Shown: piece by piece, positions 11,539 through 64,000 of the stretch
Layout: every line of letters starts with the position of its first letter
How positions within the stretch are numbered: the first letter of the stretch is position 1
Origin: Rhynochetos jubatus
Lineage: Eukaryota > Chordata > Aves > Eurypygiformes > Rhynochetidae
DNA: 64,000 nucleotides
Assembly: GCA_027574665.1 (NCBI GenBank)
Contig: CM050690.1
Span: 39,842,665 to 39,906,664 of the forward strand
Direction: 5' to 3'
Notes under the pieces: model-generated
Seen by the model: the letters and a program-made list of their open reading frames with translations, nothing else
The model's database searches: none
Told to the model about the DNA's origin: nothing
Position numbers and translations under genes: made by a program

Positions 11539-11726
11539 CTCCTCTCCTCTCCTCTCCTCTCCTCTCCTCTCCTCTCCTCTCCTCTCCTCTCCTCTCCTCT
11601 CCTCTCCTCTCCTCTCCTCTCTCCTCTCCTCTCCTCTCCTCTCCTCTCCTCTCCTCTCCTCTCTCTCCTCTCCTCTCCTCTCCTCTCCTCTCCTCTCCTC
11701 TCCTCTCCTCTCCTCTCCTCTCCTCC
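11539..11726 (+). repeat. (CCTCT)n pentanucleotide microsatellite
   Basis: About 185 bases of CCTCT repeats with two places where the phase slips (near 11620 and 11662). The complementary strand is purine-only (AGAGG), so triplex-forming potential is high. Open frames across it on both strands are artefacts of the repeat. Confidence 0.98.

Positions 11727-12353: not shown

Positions 12354-12409
<56 letters not shown>
12354..12409 (+). repeat. 56-base poly-G homopolymer
   Basis: An uninterrupted run of 56 G followed by TGATGGGGGGT. Such long mononucleotide G runs are rare in vertebrate DNA and hard to sequence, so the exact length is doubtful. A proline-rich open frame on the minus strand is produced by it and is not a gene. 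Confidence 0.95.
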
Positions 12410-13634: not shown

Positions 13635-14406
13635 TGTCATGGTTTAACCTTGGCTAGCAATTAAGTACCACGCAGCTGCTTGCTCACCTTCCCCCATCCT
13701 CCACTGGGGGAGGAGAATCGGAGGAAAAGACAAGGAAACTCATGCATGGCTATAAGAACAATTAAATAAGTGAATAGAAATTAATAAAATGGTGGTACTA
13801 ATGATATTAAACCACTAATAATACTAAGATACTACTACCAATATGTAATGAAAATAATGGAACGTAAAACAAATTATATAACTACTTTCCACCTGCCAAT
13901 GGAGACACAGCCAGGTCCCAAGTAGCAAGAGTCAGAGCCAGAGCCCCTGAGAGCCAGAGCCCCTGAGAGCCAGAGCCTGAGAGTGATCTCAGCAGAGTCC
14001 GAGGCAAGTCTGAGAGAGGGATCACACCAGAGTCCAAGCGAGCTCCATGAGCAAGAGAGCAACTGAAAGAGCCATCTGACCCACCAGTTAACTATCAAAC
14101 AAACTGTGGTCCCCCAGCCCACCCCCAGCTTATATGCTGAGCATGACGTGCTATGGGATGAAACACTCCTTTGGCCAGTTTGTGTTAGCTGATGGGGCTG
14201 CGTCCCCCACCATTGCATCCAGCACGAAAGCTGGGAACACAGGTGCAGTGTCAGAAGCTGAAAAAGCCCTTGAATCGGTACAAGCGTTCCTCAGCAACAG
14301 CTAAACCCAGCAGTGTTATCAGTGCTCTTCGCAGGGCAGATCCAAACCATAGCCTCGTACCAGCTACTGTGGAGAAATTAACTTTGACCTGACGAAAACC
14401 AGCACA
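13635..14406 (-). mobile_element. solo LTR of an endogenous retrovirus (fossil)
   Basis: About 770 bp bounded by TGTCATGGTTTAACC on the left and the complement of TGTGCTGG on the right, the two ends of an avian ERV LTR lying on the minus strand. Its internal landmarks match the LTRs at 31.3 kb and 52-62 kb: a GAGGAGAATCGGAGGAAAA block near the left end, repeated GAGAGCCAGAGCC words in the middle, and GACGTGCTATGGGATGAAA toward the right. It has no internal viral genes, so it is a solo LTR. It is clearly diverged from the array LTRs and therefore older. No exact target duplication was found. Confidence 0.85.
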
Positions 14407-25540: not shown

Positions 25541-25648
25541 ATGCTGGGAGTGAGGCAGGAAGGCAGGAGGGCAGGCAGGCAGGATGGAAGGAGGGAAGGC
25601 AGGCAGGCAGGCATGCAGGCAGGCAGGAAGGCAGGAAGGCAGGCAGGA

Positions 25649-25680
<32 letters not shown>

Positions 25681-25886
25681 AGGCAGGAAGGAAGGCAGGC
25701 AGGAAGGCAGGAAGGCAGGAAGGAAGGCAGGAAGGAAGGCAGGAAGGAAGGCAGGAAGGCAGGAAGGCAGGAAGGCAGGAAGGCAGGAAGGCAGGAAGGC
25801 AGGAAGGAAGGAAGGAAGGAAGGAAGGAAGGAAGGAAGGAAGGAAGGAAGGAAGGAAGGAAGGAAGGAAGGAAGGAAGGAAGGAAA
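25541..25886 (+). repeat. compound AGGC/AGGA tetranucleotide microsatellite
   Basis: About 345 bases of purine-rich tetranucleotides. The left part is mainly GGCA units, the middle alternates GGAA and GGCA in eight-base higher-order steps, and the right part (from about 25801) is pure GGAA. The gradient suggests growth of a GGAA block at the right end and C-containing interruptions spreading on the left. Arg/Gly/Lys-rich and Leu/Pro-rich frames on the two strands are repeat artefacts. Confidence 0.97.
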
Positions 25887-31317: not shown

Positions 31318-32100
31318 TGTCCTGGGTTTGTTCAGGAAAGAATTAACTTTACAGTGGTTATGTTATGAAGCTGTGTTCCTGGATTTACACTGAGAAAAGC
31401 ACTGAAGAAGTGTCTTTAGCTGGTGGTGGGGAGTGCTTGCACCAAATTCAAGATCTTTCTCCGCTTCTGATACTGCAGCTGCGTCCCCAACTTTCTTGCT
31501 ACAGGCAGTGTGGGGGACACACAGTTCAGACAGCAGACCCAAACTGACCAAAGGGGTATTTCATTCCACAGTAAGTCAGTCGGTACATAAGCAGGGAGTG
31601 GGTTTGGGGACCATTACACTTTTACTTTCTCTTGCACTTGCTCACACTCTCTCTAGCTCCTTTGTTAGCTGCTTTTCTAACTCCCTTGCTGGCTCATTCA
31701 TCAGTGAGTTGGTGGGTCTGTTAGTTTTCCCAGTCATGCTGCTGCTGATTGGGTTCACTCAGACTCTGCTGCGATCACTCTCGGGCTGCGGCTCTCGCGC
31801 TCTCTGGCTCTGACTCTCACTTCTCAGGACCTGGCTGTGCATCGGTCGGCAAGTGATGAGCAGTTGTATCATATTGTATCATATGTTTTATTTTCTACAG
31901 TTTTAATTACTAATTAGTAGTATTTGCATGTATTTTATATATTATTAATTTATATTCAATTAATAGATAGCTCTTATCTCAATTTTATGAGCCTCCTTGT
32001 CTTTTTCCTCCGCTTCTCCCCTCTGCTGGAGGAGGAGGGGGTGGAGCTGTGAGAGCAGCTTAGTGGTATTTTGCTGGCTGGAGTTAAACCAGTATGTTTT
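31318..32100 (+). mobile_element. solo LTR inserted in the Polinton region (fossil)
   Basis: An avian ERV LTR on the plus strand, the same family as the LTRs at 13.6 and 52-62 kb but diverged from them. It opens with TGTCCTGGGTTTG, carries the CTCTCGGGCTGCGGCTCTCG word in the middle and the TTTTCCTCCGCTTCTCCCC block near the end, and closes near GGAGTTAAACC. The 5 bases GTCAG stand directly before it (31313-31317) and at 32101-32105, a plausible target duplication. Five bases would fit an ERVL-type element. The exact right end is uncertain by a few bases. No viral genes accompany it. Confidence 0.82.
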
Positions 32101-51747: not shown

Positions 51748-52149
51748 GTAGGTGTGCATCCTCTACATAAACAAAAGTCATCATCCATGTAAACATGAAA
51801 TAATAAAAAAAAAAGGCTGTTGCTTCAATCTGTAGACTGGAAAACTAGTATGGGGTTAAAGACATGGTGCAAGTTGTCCAGTAATTTTGCATATCAAAAC
51901 AGCTGTAGATACCATCTTGGGTAACACACAATATAACAAGACTAAAAAGTCTTCTTGTAGCTAGGTGACATGTCTGAATTACAGGGATACTCAAGACCTC
52001 TTCAAAAATTGTTTGCCAAAGCTTATTTTTGTCTGAAAACAAATGTTAAGACTTTTTAATTACAATTTGTTTCTATGGCATTTTTCTTAGAAACCAACTC
52101 ACATTAGAATACCTGAAGAGTGTGAAAGTTTTAAATACTTCTTTCAAAG
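51748..52149. other. spacer between two solo LTRs
   Basis: AT-rich unique sequence with nothing recognised. Confidence 0.5.
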
Positions 52150-52944
52150 TGTCGTGGTTTAACTCCGGCTAGCAAAATACCACGAAGCCACTCTCACAAA
52201 TCCCCCTCCCCTCCTCCAGTGGAGGGGAAGAATCGGAGGAAAAAGAAATAAGGAAGCTCATAAAATTGAGATAAGAACTATTTACTAATTAAATCTAAAT
52301 CAATACATACAGGTACTACTAATAATAAATACTTAAAATAGTAGAAAATGAAACGTATAGTACAATATATACAATATGATACAATTTCCCACCATCCACT
52401 GACCAAAGCACACCCAGATGTTGAGTGATGAAAATCAGACCCCGAGAGCCCGAGACCCACAGCCCGACAGCGATCGCAGCCCGAGAGCCACGGCCTGAAG
52501 GCCGGAGCCCAGGAGCCTACGCAGTGGATTCCGAGCAAACCTTATCCCCGATAACACGGCCCGAAAACTCAAAACAATCCACCAGCTCCCACACGAGTGA
52601 GCCAGCACAGGAGTTAGCAAAGCAGCTAACACAGGAGGGTTAGCAAGTGCTCGGAGAGACGAGCAAGGGAGTAAGGGAGAGAGAGAGAAGGGAAGAGTAA
52701 TGGCTACCAGACCCTCTTCCCCACCCAAAGAGACCGGAACATGACGTACTATGGGATGAAATACTTCCTTGGTTAGTCTGGGTCAGCTACAGTATCCGAA
52801 GCGGACAAAAGACCGTGAGTTCAGTACAGGCCATCCCCAGCACCAGCTGAGGCCTTATCAATGTTTTCAATTACTGTCCAGCAACAGAGTTCCCTGGCAA
52901 CCAGAGTAAAGGGAGTTAGCCCTTTCCTGACTGACCCCAGCACA
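52150..52944 (-). mobile_element. solo LTR with intact target duplication (fossil)
   Basis: A 795-bp LTR running from TGTCGTGGTTTAACTCC to CCCCAGCACA on the plus strand, so the element lies on the minus strand. A perfect 5-bp duplication, CAAAG, stands at 52145-52149 and 52945-52949. A clean 5-bp duplication fits an ERVL-type avian element. It is closely similar to, but separate from, the LTRs of the adjacent array and stands only 73 bp from the first of them. Confidence 0.92.
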
Positions 52945-53017
52945 CAAAGCTAGAAATATTCCCACATCTTTCCATTCCTCTTCATTTTACATGCTTTCTT
53001 TTCTGCTGAAACGTGGT

Positions 53018-53807
53018 TGTCATGGTTTACTACGTCTAGCAAAATACCACAAGGTCGCTCTCACAAATCCCCCTCCCCTCCTCCAGTGGAGGGAAAGAAT
53101 CGGAGGAAAAAGAAGTAAGGAAGCTCGTGAAATTGAGATACGAACTATTTACTAATTGAACCTAAATCAATATATACAGGTCCTACTACTACTAAGTCAT
53201 TAAAATAGTAGAAAATGAAACATACGGTACAATATATACACGATGATACAATTTGTTCCAATTTCCCACCACCCACTGACCAATGCACACCCAGGTGCTG
53301 AGTAGTGAGAGTCAGACCCAGAGAGCCCCACAGCCACAGCCCGAGAGCAATCGCAGCCTGAGAGCCGCAGCCCGAGGGCCGGAGCCCGGGAGCTGACGCA
53401 GCAGATTGCGAGCGAACCCTATCAGCGATAGCGCGGCCAGGAACTCTAAGCAACCCAGCAGCTCCCACCCGAACGAGGCAGCACAGGAGTTGGCAAAGCA
53501 GCTCACGCAGGAGGGTTAGCGAGTGCCCGGGAGTAGACGAGCAAGGGAGTAAGGGGGAGAGTAATGGGAAGAGTAATGGCTACCGGACCCCTTCCGCGCC
53601 CAAGAGAGACCGGAACATGACGTAGTACGGAATGAAATACTTCCTTGCTCAGTTTGGGCCAGCTACAGTATCCACAGCGGACAAAAGACCTTGAACCCAG
53701 TACAGGCCATCCCCAGCACCAGCTGAGGCCTGATCAATGTTATTCATTGCACCTTCTTAGTCACCGCAGTAAAGGGAGTTAACCCTTTCCTGACTGAACC
53801 CAGCACA
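53018..53807 (-). mobile_element. array unit 1 LTR, recombinant left end (fossil)
   Basis: A 790-bp solo LTR. Its right flank is ACATG, as in the other units, but its left flank is GTGGT, so it lacks the target duplication seen in units 2-4. Its first 50 bases differ from the other array LTRs at about ten positions and are closer to the neighbouring LTR at 52150. After about 53066 it is nearly identical to units 2-4. Confidence 0.92.
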
Positions 53808-53905
53808 ACATGAAATGTATGCACCGCGTTTGCGCTTCACCACATTTGCTGAGGCTGGTGAAGGGGCTGGACGCTCCCAGACACAGCATTTGTTCAAAGA
53901 AGTGA

Positions 53906-53911
53906 TTTATT
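53906..53911 (-). terminator. poly(A) signal of gene copy 1
   Basis: AATAAA on the minus strand (TTTATT on plus), about 350 bp after the stop codon of the ITPRIPL1-like frame and before the LTR. It recurs in the other units at 56742, 59578 and 62414. Cleavage would be expected 10-30 bases further left. Confidence 0.7.
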
Positions 53912-54258
53912 GACATCTTTGCACCGCGCAAAGTTCCCAGAGATAATGGACCGTCTGAGGGAGGGAGGGTGGTCGCTGCCCAGGTGGTGCCGGGAGTCTC
54001 CGTCGCAAAGCTGCGTGCAATGGCCCTTTCAGCCGCACCGGGTCCCAGTGTGCAGCGTGTGCTTGTGCTGTGAAGGAAAGGTGTGGCTGCAGTGGCGCCT
54101 GCCGGTGGAGCGACGTGTTTTCCGTGTCCAGCGTCCTCAGTTCTGCAGCACTGGCTTCCCCGGGAGCGCCTTCAGGCCTGTGCCTGAAGAACTGCACCCC
54201 TGCCATCGCACAGCTCTCTCTCTGGCCACGTCCTGCTGCTGGTAGCACTGTCTTCTGC

Positions 54259-55269
54259 CTACTCGATGCTCAGCACGGTGCCCGAGTCCCGTTGCTTCAC
54301 CCCAAATATCATCTCAATGAGGAGGGGCTTACCGGAAGCATCTGTGAGCCGGAGTTTGCAGGAGTGCCTGGAGGGCAGCACTATTAATTGGCAGTGTCTT
54401 GACTGAGGCCAAAGCATCCAGGCTGCTTTTACCAATATTTTGAACCAGCAGGTGGTTTTCTCCAGGTCTAGGTAGGGGCCGGTGCAGAGGGTGCCTAGGA
54501 GGCTGCTACTCTGATTTTTCCTCAGCTCCTCCTTGGGGCGGTGGAGGAAGCACAGCATGTCCTCCACCCGCCGTTCCCTCGTGCAGGTGCACTCCAGGGC
54601 CACGCGCAGTCTGGAGTTCCTCGCCGGCATCTCCTCCGCGGCGCCCAGCTCCAGGTGGAAGGTGTGGCCGTGGGGGGCCTTCAGGGGCACGAGCAGGCAG
54701 TAGACAGGATCATGCTCAGGCGGAGTCCCAGCTTGCGGGGCGCTGCCAACCATGATGGCTGGCTGCAGTCGCGGCATGAAACTGTTCCTGGAGAGCTTGT
54801 GGCACATACGGAGAATTTCATCCACCAGCTTCTCCACCATCTGGAACGATTCTGGCAGGTCCAGTGTTCGCTTGGCTGAAATTCTGCCCACATCCAGTGC
54901 AACACCGGGTTTTTCTTCTTGCTTCTCCTCATCTGCCTTCTTTCTGCAACTGCCCTGCTTGCGGCTGCTGGCTCTCTGACTGGTCCTTCTGCCGAGCAAC
55001 CGGCAGAGCCAAAAGAGCAGGACCAGGACTGCAGCAAGGACCCAGAAGTGCCACTTCTGCAAGGCCGCAAGGGGCAGGGCTCTCCGGGCCCCACCACTCT
55101 GCTCTTGGGTCTTCTGCTCCATCTCCTCCAGCAGCCGAGCCATCTCCCGGCTCAGATGCTCCTCACGCTGCTTCATGCGCTTTTGCGTGGCCTCGCCCAG
55201 CTCGTCTGCCACCTTGCGCGCATTACTGATGAGGGTTCTGAGGGTTTTTGCGATAACCTTGGCCACCAT
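54259..55269 (-). CDS. ITPRIPL1-like membrane protein, copy 1, C-terminally shortened
   Basis: A 336-residue protein of the inositol 1,4,5-trisphosphate receptor-interacting-protein-like family. Residues 18-57 form a charged coiled coil. Residues 73-92 (WHFWVLAAVLVLLFWLCRLL) are a single membrane segment, followed by a basic and then acidic linker (to 121). From about 135 runs the Mab-21-like domain with VGSAPQAG (174-181), HDPVY (186-190), FHLELG (204-209) and LIEMIFGV (317-324). Family members are usually about 550 residues, so roughly the last 200 are missing. A further frame after the stop (54248-53907) holds AMAGVQFFRH, which resembles the family's AVAEAKFFRH, so the C-terminus was lost by a frame change and deletion. 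The start ATG has G at +4 and follows a good splice acceptor. Residue 329 is Ser. Human ITPRIP binds the IP3 receptor, but the bird paralogues' role is unknown. Confidence 0.82.
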   Translation of the reverse strand: MVAKVIAKTLRTLISNARKVADELGEATQKRMKQREEHLSREMARLLEEMEQKTQEQSGGARRALPLAALQKWHFWVLAAVLVLLFWLCRLLGRRTSQRASSRKQGSCRKKADEEKQEEKPGVALDVGRISAKRTLDLPESFQMVEKLVDEILRMCHKLSRNSFMPRLQPAIMVGSAPQAGTPPEHDPVYCLLVPLKAPHGHTFHLELGAAEEMPARNSRLRVALECTCTRERRVEDMLCFLHRPKEELRKNQSSSLLGTLCTGPYLDLEKTTCWFKILVKAAWMLWPQSRHCQLIVLPSRHSCKLRLTDASGKPLLIEMIFGVKQRDSGTVLSIE

Positions 55270-55853
55270 GGTTCAGTGTGTCTGGGAGAAGGGGAGGTGG
55301 CAGCGGGGGGAGCGGGACAGGAGCCACAGGGGGCAGGTAGGGGAGAGAGGGCAAGGCAGCTGGGAGGCAGCAAGGCCTTGTGCCCAGGCCCAGCGGCAGC
55401 GGCACTGCGGCCTGCCCAAGGTGCTCCCACAAGCACCTGAGGCCTGGATGCAGGGTGAGGACTTACACCCTTGGGGTCCGTGTTGCTGCCCTGGCCCTCA
55501 TCCAGCCGTGCCTTCCACGCCTGCGCACTCACCGCTGGCCCAGGCTGAACTGGGACAGCGCTGCCTGCTGTCACCCCTGGTGACTACCCCCATTGTGACG
55601 CGCCCCCTGGGCCGGCACAGATGTCAGAGCCCGTCACAGGCCACGCCCGCTGACCAGGCCCGGCCTTCGTCCCCACCCAGGCTCAGTGACCGCGTGGGCT
55701 ACTGCTTAAGGCTCCCACTTCCTTCGTGGGAGCTTGCACGCTCTCCCTGTTGTACTTCTCCACCTGTTGCACTTCTCTACCTGTTGTGGGTTGTTGGGGC
55801 TTTTTTTTTGTTACTGATTTGAAAATGAGATCTTTGCCTTTCTGTTGCACATG
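55270..55853 (-). promoter_or_regulatory. upstream region of gene copy 1: promoter and possible 5'UTR intron
   Basis: GC-rich 584 bp between the start codon and the next LTR. On the minus strand a pyrimidine-rich tract ends in TTCTCCCAG (AG at 55283-55282), 12 bases before the ATG. Two donor sites lie upstream, GTAAGT at 55466-55461 and GTGAGT at 55532-55527, giving possible 5'UTR introns of about 185 or 251 bp. Further upstream are GC-box-like and GTGACG words (55590-55680) and a perfect 8-bp inverted repeat (GCTCCCAC, 7-base loop, GTGGGAGC; 55711-55733). The same sites recur 2836, 5672 and 8508 bp to the right, as far as the window reaches. Confidence 0.55.
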
Positions 55854-56643
55854 GGTCGTGGTTCACTCCAGCTAGGAAAATAGCACGAGGTCGCTCTCAC
55901 CAATCCCCCTCCCCTCCTCCAGTGGAGGGAAAGAATCGGAGGAAAAAGAAGTAAGGAAGCTCGTGAAATTGAGATACGAACTATTTACTAATTGAATCTA
56001 AATCAATATATACAGGTCCTACTACTACTAAGTCATTAAAATAGTAGAAAATGAAACATACGGTACAATATATACACGATGATACAATTTGTTCCAATTT
56101 CCCACCACCCACTGACCAATGCACACCCAGGTGCTGAGTAGTGAGAGTCAGACCCAGAGAGCCCCACAGCCACAGCCCGAGAGCAATCGCAGCCTGAGAG
56201 CCGCAGCCCGAGGGCCGGAGCCCGGGAGCTGACGCAGCAGATTGCGAGCGAACCCTATCAGCGATAGCACGGCCAGGAACTCTAAGCAACCCAGCAGCTC
56301 CCACCCGAACGAGGCAGCACAGGAGTTGGCAAAGCAGCTCACGCAGGAGGGTTAGCGAGTGCCCGGGAGTAGACGAGCAAGGGAGTAAGGGGGAGAGTAA
56401 TGGGAAGAGTAATGGCTACCGGACCCCTTCCGCGCCCAAGAGAGACCGGAACATGACGTAGTATGGAATGAAATACTTCCTTGCTCAGTTTGGGCCAGCT
56501 ACAGTATCCACAGCGGACAAAAGACCTTGAACCCAGTACAGGCCATCCCCAGCACCAGCTGAGGCCTGATCAATGTTATTCATTGCACCTTCTTAGTCAC
56601 CGCAGTAAAGGGAGTTAACCCTTTCCTGACTGAACCCAGCACA
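55854..56643 (-). mobile_element. array unit 2 LTR, complete solo insertion (fossil)
   Basis: A 790-bp LTR flanked by ACATG at 55849-55853 and 56644-56648, a perfect 5-bp target duplication. This shows that the sequence left of it (gene 1 upstream region) and right of it (gene 2 downstream region) were joined before the LTR arrived. Confidence 0.93.
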
Positions 56644-56741
56644 ACATGAAATGTATGCACCGCGTTTGCGCTTCACCACATTTGCTGAGGCTGGTGAAGG
56701 GGCTGGACGCTCCCAGACACAGCATTTGTTCAAAGAAGTGA

Positions 56742-56747
56742 TTTATT
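56742..56747 (-). terminator. poly(A) signal of gene copy 2
   Basis: AATAAA on the minus strand, at the same place as in unit 1. Confidence 0.7.
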
Positions 56748-57094
56748 GACATCTTTGCACCGCGCAAAGTTCCCAGAGATAATGGACCGTCTGAGGGAGG
56801 GAGGGTGGTCGCTGCCCAGGTGGTGCCGGGAGTCTCCGTCGCAAAGCTGCGTGCAATGGCCCTTTCAGCCGCACCGGGTCCCAGTGTGCAGCGTGTGCTT
56901 GTGCTGTGAAGGAAAGGTGTGGCTGCAGTGGCGCCTGCCGGTGGAGCGACGTGTTTTCCGTGTCCAGCGTCCTCAGTTCTGCAGCACTGGCTTCCCCGGG
57001 AGCGCCTTCAGGCCTGTGCCTGAAGAACTGCACCCCTGCCATCGCACAGCTCTCTCTCTGGCCACGTCCTGCTGCTGGTAGCACTGTCTTCTGC

Positions 57095-58105
57095 CTACTC
57101 GATGCTCAGCACGGTGCCCAAGTCCCGTTGCTTCACCCCAAATATCATCTCAATGAGGAGGGGCTTACCGGAAGCATCTGTGAGCCGGAGTTTGCAGGAG
57201 TGCCTGGAGGGCAGCACTATTAATTGGCAGTGTCTTGACTGAGGCCAAAGCATCCAGGCTGCTTTTACCAATATTTTGAACCAGCAGGTGGTTTTCTCCA
57301 GGTCTAGGTAGGGGCCGGTGCAGAGGGTGCCTAGGAGGCTGCTACTCTGATTTTTCCTCAGCTCCTCCTTGGGGCGGTGGAGGAAGCACAGCATGTCCTC
57401 CACCCGCCGTTCCCTCGTGCAGGTGCACTCCAGGGCCACGCGCAGTCTGGAGTTCCTCGCCGGCATCTCCTCCGCGGCGCCCAGCTCCAGGTGGAAGGTG
57501 TGGCCGTGGGGGGCCTTCAGGGGCACGAGCAGGCAGTAGACAGGATCATGCTCAGGCGGAGTCCCAGCTTGCGGGGCGCTGCCAACCATGATGGCTGGCT
57601 GCAGTCGCGGCATGAAACTGTTCCTGGAGAGCTTGTGGCACATACGGAGAATTTCATCCACCAGCTTCTCCACCATCTGGAACGATTCTGGCAGGTCCAG
57701 TGTTCGCTTGGCTGAAATTCTGCCCACATCCAGTGCAACACCGGGTTTTTCTTCTTGCTTCTCCTCATCTGCCTTCTTTCTGCAACTGCCCTGCTTGCGG
57801 CTGCTGGCTCTCTGACTGGTCCTTCTGCCGAGCAACCGGCAGAGCCAAAAGAGCAGGACCAGGACTGCAGCAAGGACCCAGAAGTGCCACTTCTGCAAGG
57901 CCGCAAGGGGCAGGGCTCTCCGGGCCCCACCACTCTGCTCTTGGGTCTTCTGCTCCATCTCCTCCAGCAGCCGAGCCATCTCCCGGCTCAGATGCTCCTC
58001 ACGCTGCTTCATGCGCTTTTGCGTGGCCTCGCCCAGCTCGTCTGCCACCTTGCGCGCATTACTGATGAGGGTTCTGAGGGTTTTTGCGATAACCTTGGCC
58101 ACCAT
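57095..58105 (-). CDS. ITPRIPL1-like membrane protein, copy 2
   Basis: Identical in length and domain order to copy 1, with the same coiled coil, membrane segment and shortened Mab-21-like domain. The only residue difference noted is Leu instead of Ser at position 329, eight residues from the end, caused by base 57120. It has the same acceptor before the ATG, with upstream region 58106-58689. The complete solo LTR 55854-56643 lies downstream of it and the unit 3 LTR lies upstream. Confidence 0.82.
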   Translation of the reverse strand: MVAKVIAKTLRTLISNARKVADELGEATQKRMKQREEHLSREMARLLEEMEQKTQEQSGGARRALPLAALQKWHFWVLAAVLVLLFWLCRLLGRRTSQRASSRKQGSCRKKADEEKQEEKPGVALDVGRISAKRTLDLPESFQMVEKLVDEILRMCHKLSRNSFMPRLQPAIMVGSAPQAGTPPEHDPVYCLLVPLKAPHGHTFHLELGAAEEMPARNSRLRVALECTCTRERRVEDMLCFLHRPKEELRKNQSSSLLGTLCTGPYLDLEKTTCWFKILVKAAWMLWPQSRHCQLIVLPSRHSCKLRLTDASGKPLLIEMIFGVKQRDLGTVLSIE

Positions 58106-58689
58106 GGTTCAGTGTGTCTGGGAGAAGGGGAGGTGGCAGCGGGGGGAGCGGGACAGGAGCCACAGGGGGCAGGTAGGGGAGAGAGGGCAAGGCAGCTGGG
58201 AGGCAGCAAGGCCTTGTGCCCAGGCCCAGCGGCAGCGGCACTGCGGCCTGCCCAAGGTGCTCCCACAAGCACCTGAGGCCTGGATGCAGGGTGAGGACTT
58301 ACACCCTTGGGGTCCGTGTTGCTGCCCTGGCCCTCATCCAGCCGTGCCTTCCACGCCTGCGCACTCACCGCTGGCCCAGGCTGAACTGGGACAGCGCTGC
58401 CTGCTGTCACCCCTGGTGACTACCCCCATTGTGACGCGCCCCCTGGGCCGGCACAGATGTCAGAGCCCGTCACAGGCCACGCCCGCTGACCAGGCCCGGC
58501 CTTCGTCCCCACCCAGGCTCAGTGACCGCGTGGGCTACTGCTTAAGGCTCCCACTTCCTTCGTGGGAGCTTGCACGCTCTCCCTGTTGTACTTCTCCACC
58601 TGTTGCACTTCTCTACCTGTTGTGGGTTGTTGGGGCTTTTTTTTTGTTACTGATTTGAAAATGAGATCTTTGCCTTTCTGTTGCACATG
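58106..58689 (-). promoter_or_regulatory. upstream region of gene copy 2
   Basis: Same layout as the copy 1 upstream region: acceptor just before the ATG, donors GTAAGT and GTGAGT at 58302-58297 and 58368-58363, and the 8-bp inverted repeat at 58547-58569. I saw no difference from copy 1. Confidence 0.55.
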
Positions 58690-59479
58690 GGTCGTGGTTC
58701 ACTCCAGCTAGGAAAATAGCACGAGGTCGCTCTCACCAATCCCCCTCCCCTCCTCCAGTGGAGGGAAAGAATCGGAGGAAAAAGAAGTAAGGAAGCTCGT
58801 GAAATTGAGATACGAACTATTTACTAATTGAATCTAAATCAATATATACAGGTCCTACTACTACTAAGTCATTAAAATAGTAGAAAATGAAACATACGGT
58901 ACAATATATACACGATGATACAATTTGTTCCAATTTCCCACCACCCACTGACCAATGCACACCCAGGTGCTGAGTAGTGAGAGTCAGACCCAGAGAGCCC
59001 CACAGCCACAGCCCGAGAGCAATCGCAGCCTGAGAGCCGCAGCCCGAGGGCCGGAGCCCGGGAGCTGACGCAGCAGATTGCGAGCGAACCCTATCAGCGA
59101 TAGCGCGGCCAGGAACTCTAAGCAACCCAGCAGCTCCCACCCGAACGAGGCAGCACAGGAGTTGGCAAAGCAGCTCACGCAGGAGGGTTAGCGAGTGCCC
59201 GGGAGTAGACGAGCAAGGGAGTAAGGGGGAGAGTAATGGGAAGAGTAATGGCTACCGGACCCCTTCCGCGCCCAAGAGAGACCGGAACATGACGTAGTAT
59301 GGAATGAAATACTTCCTTGCTCAGTTTGGGCCAGCTACAGTATCCACAGCGGACAAAAGACCTTGAACCCAGTACAGGCCATCCCCAGCACCAGCTGAGG
59401 CCTGATCAATGTTATTCATTGCACCTTCTTAGTCACCGCAGTAAAGGGAGTTAACCCTTTCCTGACTGAACCCAGCACA
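58690..59479 (-). mobile_element. array unit 3 LTR (fossil)
   Basis: Same 790-bp LTR with ACATG on both sides. It differs from unit 2 at the position matching 56269 (G here, A there). Confidence 0.93.
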
Positions 59480-59577
59480 ACATGAAATGTATGCACCGCG
59501 TTTGCGCTTCACCACATTTGCTGAGGCTGGTGAAGGGGCTGGACGCTCCCAGACACAGCATTTGTTCAAAGAAGTGA

Positions 59578-59583
59578 TTTATT
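59578..59583 (-). terminator. poly(A) signal of gene copy 3
   Basis: AATAAA on the minus strand, same position in the unit as the other copies. Confidence 0.7.
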
Positions 59584-59930
59584 GACATCTTTGCACCGCG
59601 CAAAGTTCCCAGAGATAATGGACCGTCTGAGGGAGGGAGGGTGGTCGCTGCCCAGGTGGTGCCGGGAGTCTCCGTCGCAAAGCTGCGTGCAATGGCCCTT
59701 TCAGCCGCACCGGGTCCCAGTGTGCAGCGTGTGCTTGTGCTGTGAAGGAAAGGTGTGGCTGCAGTGGCGCCTGCCGGTGGAGCGACGTGTTTTCCGTGTC
59801 CAGCGTCCTCAGTTCTGCAGCACTGGCTTCCCCGGGAGCGCCTTCAGGCCTGTGCCTGAAGAACTGCACCCCTGCCATCGCACAGCTCTCTCTCTGGCCA
59901 CGTCCTGCTGCTGGTAGCACTGTCTTCTGC

Positions 59931-60941
59931 CTACTCGATGCTCAGCACGGTGCCCAAGTCCCGTTGCTTCACCCCAAATATCATCTCAATGAGGAGGGGC
60001 TTACCGGAAGCATCTGTGAGCCGGAGTTTGCAGGAGTGCCTGGAGGGCAGCACTATTAATTGGCAGTGTCTTGACTGAGGCCAAAGCATCCAGGCTGCTT
60101 TTACCAATATTTTGAACCAGCAGGTGGTTTTCTCCAGGTCTAGGTAGGGGCCGGTGCAGAGGGTGCCTAGGAGGCTGCTACTCTGATTTTTCCTCAGCTC
60201 CTCCTTGGGGCGGTGGAGGAAGCACAGCATGTCCTCCACCCGCCGTTCCCTCGTGCAGGTGCACTCCAGGGCCACGCGCAGTCTGGAGTTCCTCGCCGGC
60301 ATCTCCTCCGCGGCGCCCAGCTCCAGGTGGAAGGTGTGGCCGTGGGGGGCCTTCAGGGGCACGAGCAGGCAGTAGACAGGATCATGCTCAGGCGGAGTCC
60401 CAGCTTGCGGGGCGCTGCCAACCATGATGGCTGGCTGCAGTCGCGGCATGAAACTGTTCCTGGAGAGCTTGTGGCACATACGGAGAATTTCATCCACCAG
60501 CTTCTCCACCATCTGGAACGATTCTGGCAGGTCCAGTGTTCGCTTGGCTGAAATTCTGCCCACATCCAGTGCAACACCGGGTTTTTCTTCTTGCTTCTCC
60601 TCATCTGCCTTCTTTCTGCAACTGCCCTGCTTGCGGCTGCTGGCTCTCTGACTGGTCCTTCTGCCGAGCAACCGGCAGAGCCAAAAGAGCAGGACCAGGA
60701 CTGCAGCAAGGACCCAGAAGTGCCACTTCTGCAAGGCCGCAAGGGGCAGGGCTCTCCGGGCCCCACCACTCTGCTCTTGGGTCTTCTGCTCCATCTCCTC
60801 CAGCAGCCGAGCCATCTCCCGGCTCAGATGCTCCTCACGCTGCTTCATGCGCTTTTGCGTGGCCTCGCCCAGCTCGTCTGCCACCTTGCGCGCATTACTG
60901 ATGAGGGTTCTGAGGGTTTTTGCGATAACCTTGGCCACCAT
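59931..60941 (-). CDS. ITPRIPL1-like membrane protein, copy 3
   Basis: Protein identical to copy 2, including Leu at residue 329 (base 59956). It is a full 336-codon open frame with the same start context and upstream acceptor. Units 2 and 3 differ at only one site that I could find over their whole length, so these are extremely recent duplicates or a conversion pair. Confidence 0.82.
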   Translation of the reverse strand: MVAKVIAKTLRTLISNARKVADELGEATQKRMKQREEHLSREMARLLEEMEQKTQEQSGGARRALPLAALQKWHFWVLAAVLVLLFWLCRLLGRRTSQRASSRKQGSCRKKADEEKQEEKPGVALDVGRISAKRTLDLPESFQMVEKLVDEILRMCHKLSRNSFMPRLQPAIMVGSAPQAGTPPEHDPVYCLLVPLKAPHGHTFHLELGAAEEMPARNSRLRVALECTCTRERRVEDMLCFLHRPKEELRKNQSSSLLGTLCTGPYLDLEKTTCWFKILVKAAWMLWPQSRHCQLIVLPSRHSCKLRLTDASGKPLLIEMIFGVKQRDLGTVLSIE

Positions 60942-61525
60942 GGTTCAGTGTGTCTGGGAGAAGGGGAGGTGGCAGCGGGGGGAGCGGGACAGGAGCCACA
61001 GGGGGCAGGTAGGGGAGAGAGGGCAAGGCAGCTGGGAGGCAGCAAGGCCTTGTGCCCAGGCCCAGCGGCAGCGGCACTGCGGCCTGCCCAAGGTGCTCCC
61101 ACAAGCACCTGAGGCCTGGATGCAGGGTGAGGACTTACACCCTTGGGGTCCGTGTTGCTGCCCTGGCCCTCATCCAGCCGTGCCTTCCACGCCTGCGCAC
61201 TCACCGCTGGCCCAGGCTGAACTGGGACAGCGCTGCCTGCTGTCACCCCTGGTGACTACCCCCATTGTGACGCGCCCCCTGGGCCGGCACAGATGTCAGA
61301 GCCCGTCACAGGCCACGCCCGCTGACCAGGCCCGGCCTTCGTCCCCACCCAGGCTCAGTGACCGCGTGGGCTACTGCTTAAGGCTCCCACTTCCTTCGTG
61401 GGAGCTTGCACGCTCTCCCTGTTGTACTTCTCCACCTGTTGCACTTCTCTACCTGTTGTGGGTTGTTGGGGCTTTTTTTTTGTTACTGATTTGAAAATGA
61501 GATCTTTGCCTTTCTGTTGCACATG
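60942..61525 (-). promoter_or_regulatory. upstream region of gene copy 3
   Basis: Same acceptor, donor pair (61138-61133 and 61204-61199) and inverted repeat (61383-61405) as copies 1 and 2. Confidence 0.55.
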
Positions 61526-62315
61526 GGTCGTGGTTCACTCCAGCTAGGAAAATAGCACGAGGTCGCTCTCACCAATCCCCCTCCCCTCCTCCAGTGGAGG
61601 GAAAGAATCGGAGGAAAAAGAAGTAAGGAAGCTCGTGAAATTGAGATACGAACTATTTACTAATTGAATCTAAATCAATATATACAGGTCCTACTACTAC
61701 TAAGTCATTAAAATAGTAGAAAATGAAACATACGGTACAATATATACACGATGATACAATTTGTTCCAATTTCCCACCACCCACTGACCAATGCACACCC
61801 AGGTGCTGAGTAGTGAGAGTCAGACCCAGAGAGCCCCACAGCCACAGCCCGAGAGCAATCGCAGCCTGAGAGCCGCAGCCCGAGGGCCGGAGCCCGGGAG
61901 CTGACGCAGCAGATTGCGAGCGAACCCTATCAGCGATAGCGCGGCCAGGAACTCTAAGCAACCCAGCAGCTCCCACCCGAACGAGGCAGCACAGGAGTTG
62001 GCAAAGCAGCTCACGCAGGAGGGTTAGCGAGTGCCCGGGAGTAGACGAGCAAGGGAGTAAGGGGGAGAGTAATGGGAAGAGTAATGGCTACCGGACCCCT
62101 TCCGCGCCCAAGAGAGACCGGAACATGACGTAGTATGGAATGAAATACTTCCTTGCTCAGTTTGGGCCAGCTACAGTATCCACAGCGGACAAAAGACCTT
62201 GAACCCAGTACAGGCCATCCCCAGCACCAGCTGAGGCCTGATCAATGTTATTCATTGCACCTTCTTAGTCACCGCAGTAAAGGGAGTTAACCCTTTCCTG
62301 ACTGAACCCAGCACA
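61526..62315 (-). mobile_element. array unit 4 LTR (fossil)
   Basis: Same 790-bp LTR flanked by ACATG on both sides. It matches unit 3 as far as I could check. Confidence 0.93.
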
Positions 62316-62413
62316 ACATGAAATGTATGCACCGCGTTTGCGCTTCACCACATTTGCTGAGGCTGGTGAAGGGGCTGGACGCTCCCAGACACAGCATTTG
62401 TTCAAAGAAGTGA

Positions 62414-62419
62414 TTTATT
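62414..62419 (-). terminator. poly(A) signal of gene copy 4
   Basis: AATAAA on the minus strand, same position in the unit as the other copies. Confidence 0.7.
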
Positions 62420-62766
62420 GACATCTTTGCACCGCGCAAAGTTCCCAGAGATAATGGACCGTCTGAGGGAGGGAGGGTGGTCGCTGCCCAGGTGGTGCCG
62501 GGAGTCTCCGTCGCAAAGCTGCGTGCAATGGCCCTTTCAGCCGCACCGGGTCCCAGTGTGCAGCGTGTGCTTGTGCTGTGAAGGAAAGGTGTGGCTGCAG
62601 TGGCGCCTGCCGGTGGAGCGACGTGTTTTCCGTGTCCAGCGTCCTCAGTTCTGCAGCACTGGCTTCCCCGGGAGCGCCTTCAGGCCTGTGCCTGAAGAAC
62701 TGCACCCCTGCCATCGCACAGCTCTCTCTCTGGCCACGTCCTGCTGCTGGTAGCACTGTCTTCTGC

Positions 62767-63777
62767 CTACTCGATGCTCAGCACGGTGCCCGAGTCCCGT
62801 TGCTTCACCCCAAATATCATCTCAATGAGGAGGGGCTTACCGGAAGCATCTGTGAGCCGGAGTTTGCAGGAGTGCCTGGAGGGCAGCACTATTAATTGGC
62901 AGTGTCTTGACTGAGGCCAAAGCATCCAGGCTGCTTTTACCAATATTTTGAACCAGCAGGTGGTTTTCTCCAGGTCTAGGTAGGGGCCGGTGCAGAGGGT
63001 GCCTAGGAGGCTGCTACTCTGATTTTTCCTCAGCTCCTCCTTGGGGCGGTGGAGGAAGCACAGCATGTCCTCCACCCGCCGTTCCCTCGTGCAGGTGCAC
63101 TCCAGGGCCACGCGCAGTCTGGAGTTCCTCGCCGGCATCTCCTCCGCGGCGCCCAGCTCCAGGTGGAAGGTGTGGCCGTGGGGGGCCTTCAGGGGCACGA
63201 GCAGGCAGTAGACAGGATCATGCTCAGGCGGAGTCCCAGCTTGCGGGGCGCTGCCAACCATGATGGCTGGCTGCAGTCGCGGCATGAAACTGTTCCTGGA
63301 GAGCTTGTGGCACATACGGAGAATTTCATCCACCAGCTTCTCCACCATCTGGAACGATTCTGGCAGGTCCAGTGTTCGCTTGGCTGAAATTCTGCCCACA
63401 TCCAGTGCAACACCGGGTTTTTCTTCTTGCTTCTCCTCATCTGCCTTCTTTCTGCAACTGCCCTGCTTGCGGCTGCTGGCTCTCTGACTGGTCCTTCTGC
63501 CGAGCAACCGGCAGAGCCAAAAGAGCAGGACCAGGACTGCAGCAAGGACCCAGAAGTGCCACTTCTGCAAGGCCGCAAGGGGCAGGGCTCTCCGGGCCCC
63601 ACCACTCTGCTCTTGGGTCTTCTGCTCCATCTCCTCCAGCAGCCGAGCCATCTCCCGGCTCAGATGCTCCTCACGCTGCTTCATGCGCTTTTGCGTGGCC
63701 TCGCCCAGCTCGTCTGCCACCTTGCGCGCATTACTGATGAGGGTTCTGAGGGTTTTTGCGATAACCTTGGCCACCAT
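62767..63777 (-). CDS. ITPRIPL1-like membrane protein, copy 4
   Basis: Protein identical to copy 1, with Ser at residue 329 (base 62792 is G). The 336-codon frame is intact, with the same start, coiled coil, membrane segment and shortened Mab-21-like domain. The upstream region runs to the window end and has one private base change at 63902. Unit 4 is cut at 64000, about 360 bp before its expected end. Confidence 0.82.
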   Translation of the reverse strand: MVAKVIAKTLRTLISNARKVADELGEATQKRMKQREEHLSREMARLLEEMEQKTQEQSGGARRALPLAALQKWHFWVLAAVLVLLFWLCRLLGRRTSQRASSRKQGSCRKKADEEKQEEKPGVALDVGRISAKRTLDLPESFQMVEKLVDEILRMCHKLSRNSFMPRLQPAIMVGSAPQAGTPPEHDPVYCLLVPLKAPHGHTFHLELGAAEEMPARNSRLRVALECTCTRERRVEDMLCFLHRPKEELRKNQSSSLLGTLCTGPYLDLEKTTCWFKILVKAAWMLWPQSRHCQLIVLPSRHSCKLRLTDASGKPLLIEMIFGVKQRDSGTVLSIE

Positions 63778-64000
63778 GGTTCAGTGTGTCTGGGAGAAGG
63801 GGAGGTGGCAGCGGGGGGAGCGGGACAGGAGCCACAGGGGGCAGGTAGGGGAGAGAGGGCAAGGCAGCTGGGAGGCAGCAAGGCCTTGTGCCCAGGCCCA
63901 GTGGCAGCGGCACTGCGGCCTGCCCAAGGTGCTCCCACAAGCACCTGAGGCCTGGATGCAGGGTGAGGACTTACACCCTTGGGGTCCGTGTTGCTGCCCT
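63778..64000 (-). promoter_or_regulatory. upstream region of gene copy 4, cut by window end
   Basis: Contains the same acceptor before the ATG and the GTAAGT donor (63974-63969). The inverted repeat and next LTR would lie beyond the window. Confidence 0.5.

Follow-up and report, generated by a model that had tools for sequence, protein, structure and literature searches.

A tandem array of short ITPRIPL1-like genes in the kagu, probably placed inside a resident retroviral long terminal repeat by recombination

Near the end of a 64,000-nucleotide stretch of the kagu (Rhynochetos jubatus) genome, here called the window (C48:39842665-39906664, C48 being the contig that holds it), lies a tandem array in which a short gene related to ITPRIPL1 alternates with the long terminal repeat (LTR) of an endogenous retrovirus (ERV). 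From position 53018 to the end of the window, self-identity reaches 99.8% at a lag of 2836 bp, as against 31% at the best lag that is not a multiple of it, which bears out the exact, near-identical repeat described in a first-pass annotation. Its by-eye count of three variable sites in units 2-4 was reproduced by computation within the window (phases 415, 1266 and 2376), and the intact ITPRIPL1-like frame it assigned to each unit was found in all four window units as one open frame of 336 amino acids (aa) on the minus strand. The array leaves the window, as had also been noted, and the whole of it spans 17.8 kb (C48:39895682-39913486), with six bodies and seven LTRs. Each unit is made up of an LTR of ~790 bp and a 2.04-kb body; five units measure 2836 bp and one, with a 10-bp deletion in its LTR, 2826 bp. 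With the first 60 columns and the gap columns left out of the comparison, any two of the six units differ at 1-4 sites (mean 2.7), and all six can be told apart. Neutral change accumulates at a rate near 2e-9 per site and year, by which the common ancestry or last exchange of the six units would date to roughly 0.2-0.3 million years ago.

The first-pass annotation had offered recent amplification, uniformity kept by exchange, or partly an assembly product as explanations of this near-identity, and the first two can stand. An assembly product, in which one or a few real units were multiplied or collapsed, is very improbable. It could draw on the high identity of the units (about 99.9%), but every unit is distinct, through the 10-bp deletion or through nucleotide polymorphisms confined to single units, the LTRs at the borders are hybrids, no N occurs in the window or in loci L009 and L010, and the same assembly shows other arrays of the family with other periods. 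We judge the array to be real in the assembly and recent.

The key to its origin is a feature absent from the first-pass annotation, the divergent first 48 bp of unit 1, which differ from units 2-4 at 10 positions. Set against the LTR of unit 6, the left border LTR shows ten differences in its first 48 bp and then only three, at 144, 278 and 611, while the right border LTR differs at 278, next at 679 and then at many positions to its end. Foreign sequence thus makes up the first 48 bp of the leftmost LTR and the last ~110 bp of the rightmost one; position 278 varies among the inner LTRs as well. Along the array the 5-bp flanks run GTGGT/LTR1/ACATG, then ACATG/ACATG at the inner LTRs, then ACATG/LTR7/CTGGT. 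The inner LTR, which is the solo LTR of the repeat unit (LTR_B), therefore has the matching flanks of a target-site duplication, as does a separate LTR just upstream of the array (CAAAG/CAAAG), and the outer pair, GTGGT and CTGGT, matches at four of five bases. By arithmetic, the chance of a 5/5 inner match is 1/1024 and that of an outer match of at least 4/5 is 16/1024. The inner LTRs begin with GG, not with the TG of the TG...CA end rule. The 5-bp flank rule holds for this LTR family: by eye, ten other members show 5/5 flanks in six cases and 4/5 in three, the tenth abutting a sequence like a primer-binding site (PBS) so that it can show none, and two further solo LTRs have 5/5. The family is large, with 5988 first-look candidates, and among the 40 scored those outside the array and the C48 loci L011 and L012 are at most 89% identical to LTR_B, so the middle shared by the border and inner LTRs is not a family default. 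Because of the ACATG inner flanks, the foreign outer LTR ends and the nearly matching outer flanks, the units are taken to lie inside one older LTR; save for one base in the outer pair, the flanks fit a resident LTR split by a run of units of LTR_B plus body.

This arrangement recurs at a second place on C48. Locus L011 (C48:40.030-40.034 Mb, inverted), 120 kb from the array, is a single LTR-body-LTR unit that lies within a different LTR of this family and has a hybrid LTR at each border: the left LTR is foreign up to position 124 and the right one from 642, and between these parts the two have one and the same sequence, which departs from the unit-6 LTR at positions 225 and 278 alone. Comparison of the L011 body with that of unit 1 shows 6 differing sites, 2 of them in the gene. 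The outer flanks of L011 cannot be compared with each other, as one side runs into proviral sequence, where no further family LTR was found in the next 19 kb, and a blastn comparison of the outer flanks of the array with those of L011 (2.1 to 4.1 kb on each side) gave no match at E 1e-3. A third copy, L012 (C48:39.759 Mb), retains a partial LTR 95.6% like LTR_B and an intact 336-aa frame whose protein is 97% identical, with nine nonsynonymous and four synonymous differences from unit 1. Small scrambled pieces of the body lie beside its LTR (C48:39760495-39761063), and at several sites its intact gene retains the family-type residue whereas the array does not; we read L012 as a truncated, rearranged copy. 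Locus L019 (C48:31.14 Mb) holds an old copy, decayed and interrupted by six stops, together with a separate solo LTR that has the flanks GAACC/GAACC.

Ordinary unequal crossing-over between two independent LTRs that flanked one gene, followed by expansion, was our initial reading. Exchange between LTRs is well known, and each inner LTR does carry the right border LTR's 5' flank together with the left one's 3' flank. The flank pattern spoke against it, however, since such a history predicts one matched pair at the leftmost LTR (t1/t1), another at the rightmost (t2/t2) and unmatched flanks inside, the reverse of GTGGT/ACATG, ACATG/CTGGT and ACATG/ACATG, and it gives no account of a unit in a second LTR 120 kb away. 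We consider it unlikely.

The DNA between the LTRs is of host origin. The repeat unit joins LTR_B to 2.04 kb that hold the short gene, its own flanks and its own poly(A) signal, an AATAAA 348 bp 3' of the stop, and both the coding sequence and the alignable flanks match a sister array on contig C6 equally well (identity 77.5% in the coding part, 77.7% in the alignable 5' flank and 75.5% in the 3' flank). Capture of the gene by a retrovirus that then carried it between its LTRs would suit the LTR-gene-LTR layout and the sense of the parts, since at L011 an LTR adjoins a PBS-like sequence, presumably of the Lys type, by which LTR and gene would share one sense. That history is nonetheless most improbable: the flanks are as host-like as the coding part, the gene has its own AATAAA, and the inner LTR is bordered by a matching 5-bp pair, as a solo LTR inserted in host DNA would be.

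We hold it probable that the array arose by LTR-LTR recombination that placed one or more units inside a resident LTR, with a functional step attached; the recombination origin is the strong part of this explanation. An ERV would have inserted between gene copies of an older tandem array and shrunk to the solo LTR_B. A unit would then have left by recombination between LTRs, either as a circle or through copying in the course of gap repair, and homologous recombination would have brought it into resident LTRs. At one of these it would have grown to six copies, kept uniform by exchange. The dose and fast change of a catalytically silent membrane protein, driven by immune or reproductive conflict, would supply the functional step, a weak inference that we regard as doubtful. 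Several observations weigh against this explanation. The outer flanks of the array match at four bases, not five, those of L011 cannot be compared because one side is proviral, and the scrambled L012 adds little. No locus with a tandem array that predates the LTR was found, and the insertion of LTR_B between gene copies rests on a 5-bp match alone. The circle and gap-repair routes are indistinguishable, and the LTR of unit 1 has two private changes (144 and 611). The sole kagu protein among 75 matches to the 336-aa array protein is P0069, a partial relative at 53%; because proteins of sister arrays do have listed kagu matches (on contig C17 at 100% with one residue different, and for a 58-unit array on contig C1 at 100%), the array gene may be unannotated in the kagu protein set. 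On the side of function, nonsynonymous divergence (dN) about equals synonymous divergence (dS), and acidic positions are lost in some sister arrays. All steps are known processes, here in a combination and a gene family for which no description was found. It is plausible, if short of probable, that a host gene was turned in this way into a recombination-borne mobile unit, wrapped by a solo LTR and with no integrase or transposase of its own, which enters resident LTRs by homologous recombination and seeds arrays.

Table 1. Features of the C48 array and tandem arrays of the ITPRIPL1-like family in the kagu genome. Positions are those of the window unless a contig is named; TSD, target-site duplication.
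Feature	Position	Strand	Remarks
Separate upstream solo LTR, array LTR family	52150-52944	- (inferred LTR sense)	83% identical to array LTRs; perfect 5-bp TSD CAAAG (52145-52149 / 52945-52949)
GTGGT, left flank of resident LTR	53013-53017	.	partner CTGGT right of last array LTR, beyond window, just after C48:39913486
Left border LTR	53018-53807	- (sense from PBS-like sequence at sister locus L011)	first 48 bp resident type (10 differences), rest array type
Unit 1 body, gene and own flanks	53808-55853	-	ACATG at both ends (53808-53812, 55849-55853)
Unit 1 short ITPRIPL1-like gene, 336 aa	54259-55269	-	open frame; AATAAA 348 bp after stop
Inner LTR of unit 2	55854-56643	-	flanks ACATG/ACATG
Unit 2 gene, 336 aa	57095-58105	-	open frame; S329L vs unit 1
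Inner LTR of unit 3	58690-59479	-	
Unit 3 gene, 336 aa	59931-60941	-	open frame; S329L
Inner LTR of unit 4	61526-62315	-	
Unit 4 gene, 336 aa	62767-63777	-	open frame
Units 5 and 6, right border LTR	C48:39907026-39913486		beyond window
C48 array	C48:39895682-39913486		six units, five of 2836 bp and one of 2826 bp
C1 58-unit array (L013-L018, L033, L034)	C1:142865798-143095963 (142.87-143.10 Mb)		about 230 kb, period about 4021 bp; long gene
C6 array	C6, 46.61-46.68 Mb		13 units of about 2.7 kb and two nearby
C17 array	C17, 12.51 Mb		9 units of 1833 bp
C4 38.4-Mb array	C4, 38.38-38.41 Mb		9 rows (10 with second query), mostly 2455 bp apart
C4 56.7-Mb array (L028-L030)	C4, 56.70-56.74 Mb		7 rows about 3415 bp apart and one inverted
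C1 59-Mb array	C1, 59.06-59.08 Mb		7 rows, period about 5.3 kb, two gene copies each, one a 202-206-aa frame

The C48 array is one of at least seven tandem arrays of the ITPRIPL1-like family in this genome, each with its own unit length, from 1833 bp to about 5.3 kb (Table 1). Behind this figure stands a protein search in which 120 of 202 candidates were scored and 123 match rows obtained; a few rows represent fragments of a single gene, and the counts are lower bounds. Stops inside the match are absent from 121 of the 123 rows. Neighbouring units are at least 99.8% identical over their best 800 bp in at least one locus of each array scanned, while the C48 body resembles the other arrays at 65-72% in the longer alignments. 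The 58-unit array on C1 is far larger than that on C48. Sequence of the LTR family occurs in the C48 units and, diverged to about 70%, in the scanned units of the C1 58-unit array; elsewhere among the arrays scanned, only fragments were seen, at the right edge of the C6 array and at the left C4 38.4-Mb locus. The LTR-related stretch of the C1 58-unit array was considered as a possible shared ancestral insertion. In the C4 56.7-Mb array, one TGA falls inside the match to the sister C4 array in 8 of 8 rows, and the long frame there ends a few residues early; in the C4 38.4-Mb array, one TAA was found in 1 of 10 rows with the second query.

By homology the array protein belongs to the ITPRIPL1-like family, its 75 matches including named ITPRIPL1 proteins (Aquila, 65% over 100% of the query; Phoenicopterus, 63% over 99%). 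It stops before the C-terminal lobe (PF20266) of a full MAB21 fold: this family is not among the Pfam matches of the window protein at E up to 1, and no Pfam family scored above its curated cut-off, the best being Focal_AT (E 0.0012, 19.2 of 23.3 bits). As it has no C-terminal lobe, we file it as a short subfamily and not as ITPRIPL1 proper. The first-pass annotation, which had called ITPRIPL1-like families large in passerines, regarded an LTR-bounded array of a shortened form as worth describing. The kagu, a member of the Eurypygiformes, is no passerine; the LTR boundaries and the short frame are confirmed, but the short form is not specific to the array. The C48, C6, C17, C4 38.4-Mb and C1 59-Mb arrays encode proteins that are for the most part 336-347 aa long and that have a common end in the alignment, and most short bird proteins aligned end there too. 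A local truncation of the array gene was rejected on this shared stop. The C1 58-unit array encodes a long form, 495 aa from the family-type start. Of 163 proteins found in the homology searches, 82 show the short-form ending (one of these, P0092, only by chance) and another 6 stop two residues before it; 54 are long forms, and the remaining 21 are partial or of other kinds. We take the short form, on these alignments, to be an avian ITPRIPL1-like subfamily with a shared stop position. It probably predates Neoaves, because it is found in ducks and swans (P0096, P0089, P0097), in grouse (P0131) and in two passerine proteins (P0159, P0160). In a tree of 43 rows, with a root set for display only, there are one long and two short groups, and the C17 protein pairs with a crane protein at 100/100. 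Two long rows, from ibis and cormorant, are placed within the main short group, a position suggestive of conversion or of mixed gene models. The short and long proteins of one species have a nearly identical N-terminal stretch in cormorant (P0010/P0019) and in pelican (P0012/P0034), a pattern that suggests gene conversion between short and long genes.

The model of the short form (mean predicted local distance difference test, pLDDT, 70; predicted template modelling score, pTM, 0.52) shows a helical N-terminal part, then a helix spanning 65-97 in which the membrane segment lies, and a core that begins at 140. Among the 50 Foldseek matches listed for it, the best from the PDB were cGAS, MiD51 and MAB21L1 (E 6e-5 to 4e-4, template modelling score about 0.3), weak support for a nucleotidyltransferase-like core of the MAB21/cGAS-like fold. 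The long-form model matches MiD51 at 1.6e-10 and resembles cGAS and MAB21L1 too, and from the models the short form ends after the first lobe of this fold, without the C-terminal lobe. The acidic core residues that we presume to matter, by analogy with cGAS, are not conserved across the arrays as a catalytic enzyme would require: E185/D187 of the C48 protein align with a stretch reading GNGAAY in C6 and GSSIAY in C4 38.4 Mb. Because the acidic positions are lost in these two arrays, we take the array protein for a pseudo-enzyme, most likely a catalytically silent membrane protein. The best N-terminal 12-mer has a hydropathy of 0.89 in C48, 1.07 in C6 and 1.22 in the C1 58-unit protein, against 1.94 in C17, 2.57 in C1 59 Mb and 2.88 in C4 38.4 Mb. 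The membrane topology of the C48 protein is uncertain, since its N-terminus is less hydrophobic than those of the last three.

Whether copy number is favoured by function is the part of the account most exposed to an alternative, namely that the arrays are a selectively neutral, satellite-like amplification of a drifting family. This is possible and to be taken seriously, and it rivals the functional step only. Between C48 and C6, dN is 0.299 and dS 0.319, as drift would have it, and variable codons within arrays comprise 34 nonsynonymous and 13 synonymous ones, a raw count from the full-length copies examined (14/58, 6/15, 4/9, 4/10, 2/7 and 6/6), to which one outlying C4 copy may supply many codons. 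The weak N-terminal hydrophobic segment of C48 and the TGA and TAA codons of the two C4 arrays point the same way. Set against these are the mostly open frames, the stop position kept across many birds, and array pairs with dN well under dS, such as C48 and C17 (dN 0.39, dS 0.72), by which constraint varies between pairs. C48 and C6 each keep an open frame and are separated by in-frame indels only, and in a substitution-only neutral simulation the chance that neither would have a stop was 0.0004. We read these data as fast evolution with frames kept, with neutral drift as a serious rival.

C48 probably represents the Z chromosome. Birds have the DMRT1-DMRT3-DMRT2 cluster on Z, and three DM-domain matches, of which one is partial, lie on C48 within 98 kb (67.50-67.60 Mb); C11 has another two. 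The window also contains two more diverged LTRs of the array LTR family (31418-32091 and 13637-14190), one on the other strand, and simple repeats: CTCCT x37 (11539-11725), a run of 56 G (12354-12409) and AGGCAGGA x42 (25553-25885).

Target-site flanks and hybrid LTRs may thus provide a readable record of the entry of a vertebrate gene array into an ERV LTR, and the same record would show the unit reaching a second LTR. The array also draws attention to an avian gene family that has been little described and that has both a shared short form and repeated amplification, uniform within each array; no paper on bird ITPRIPL1-like arrays was found among the matches listed from the open-licence literature. 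If the reading of the unit as mobile is true, it concerns a fast-changing avian membrane-protein family that has been amplified in parallel at no fewer than seven places of a single genome. Concertedly evolving tandem gene arrays of vertebrates consist of near-identical head-to-tail units. The kagu array is alike in this respect and differs in that at least seven arrays of one family, with unlike unit lengths, occur in one genome. With the long form, ITPRIPL1/CD3L1, the array protein shares homology and a predicted membrane helix, whereas many long bird forms carry PF20266 and the array protein is without that C-terminal Mab-21 lobe. Human ITPRIPL1 has been reported as a ligand of CD3 (PMC13365830, PMC10770237, PMC11357910), more exactly of CD3-epsilon (PMC11357910, PMC13365830), and has also been tied to testis immune privilege (PMC13365830). 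The CD3-epsilon binding is described for the human protein; with a human relative reported as a T-cell checkpoint ligand, the bird copies are worth testing. The closest parallel for the proposed route is the yeast GAP1 circle, which is reported to form between flanking LTRs and shows that LTR-LTR recombination can release a host gene lying between them in circular form (PMC10667340). That case concerns yeast under nutrient limitation, whereas the kagu unit sits in resident LTRs at two sites and a circle would be its putative intermediate.

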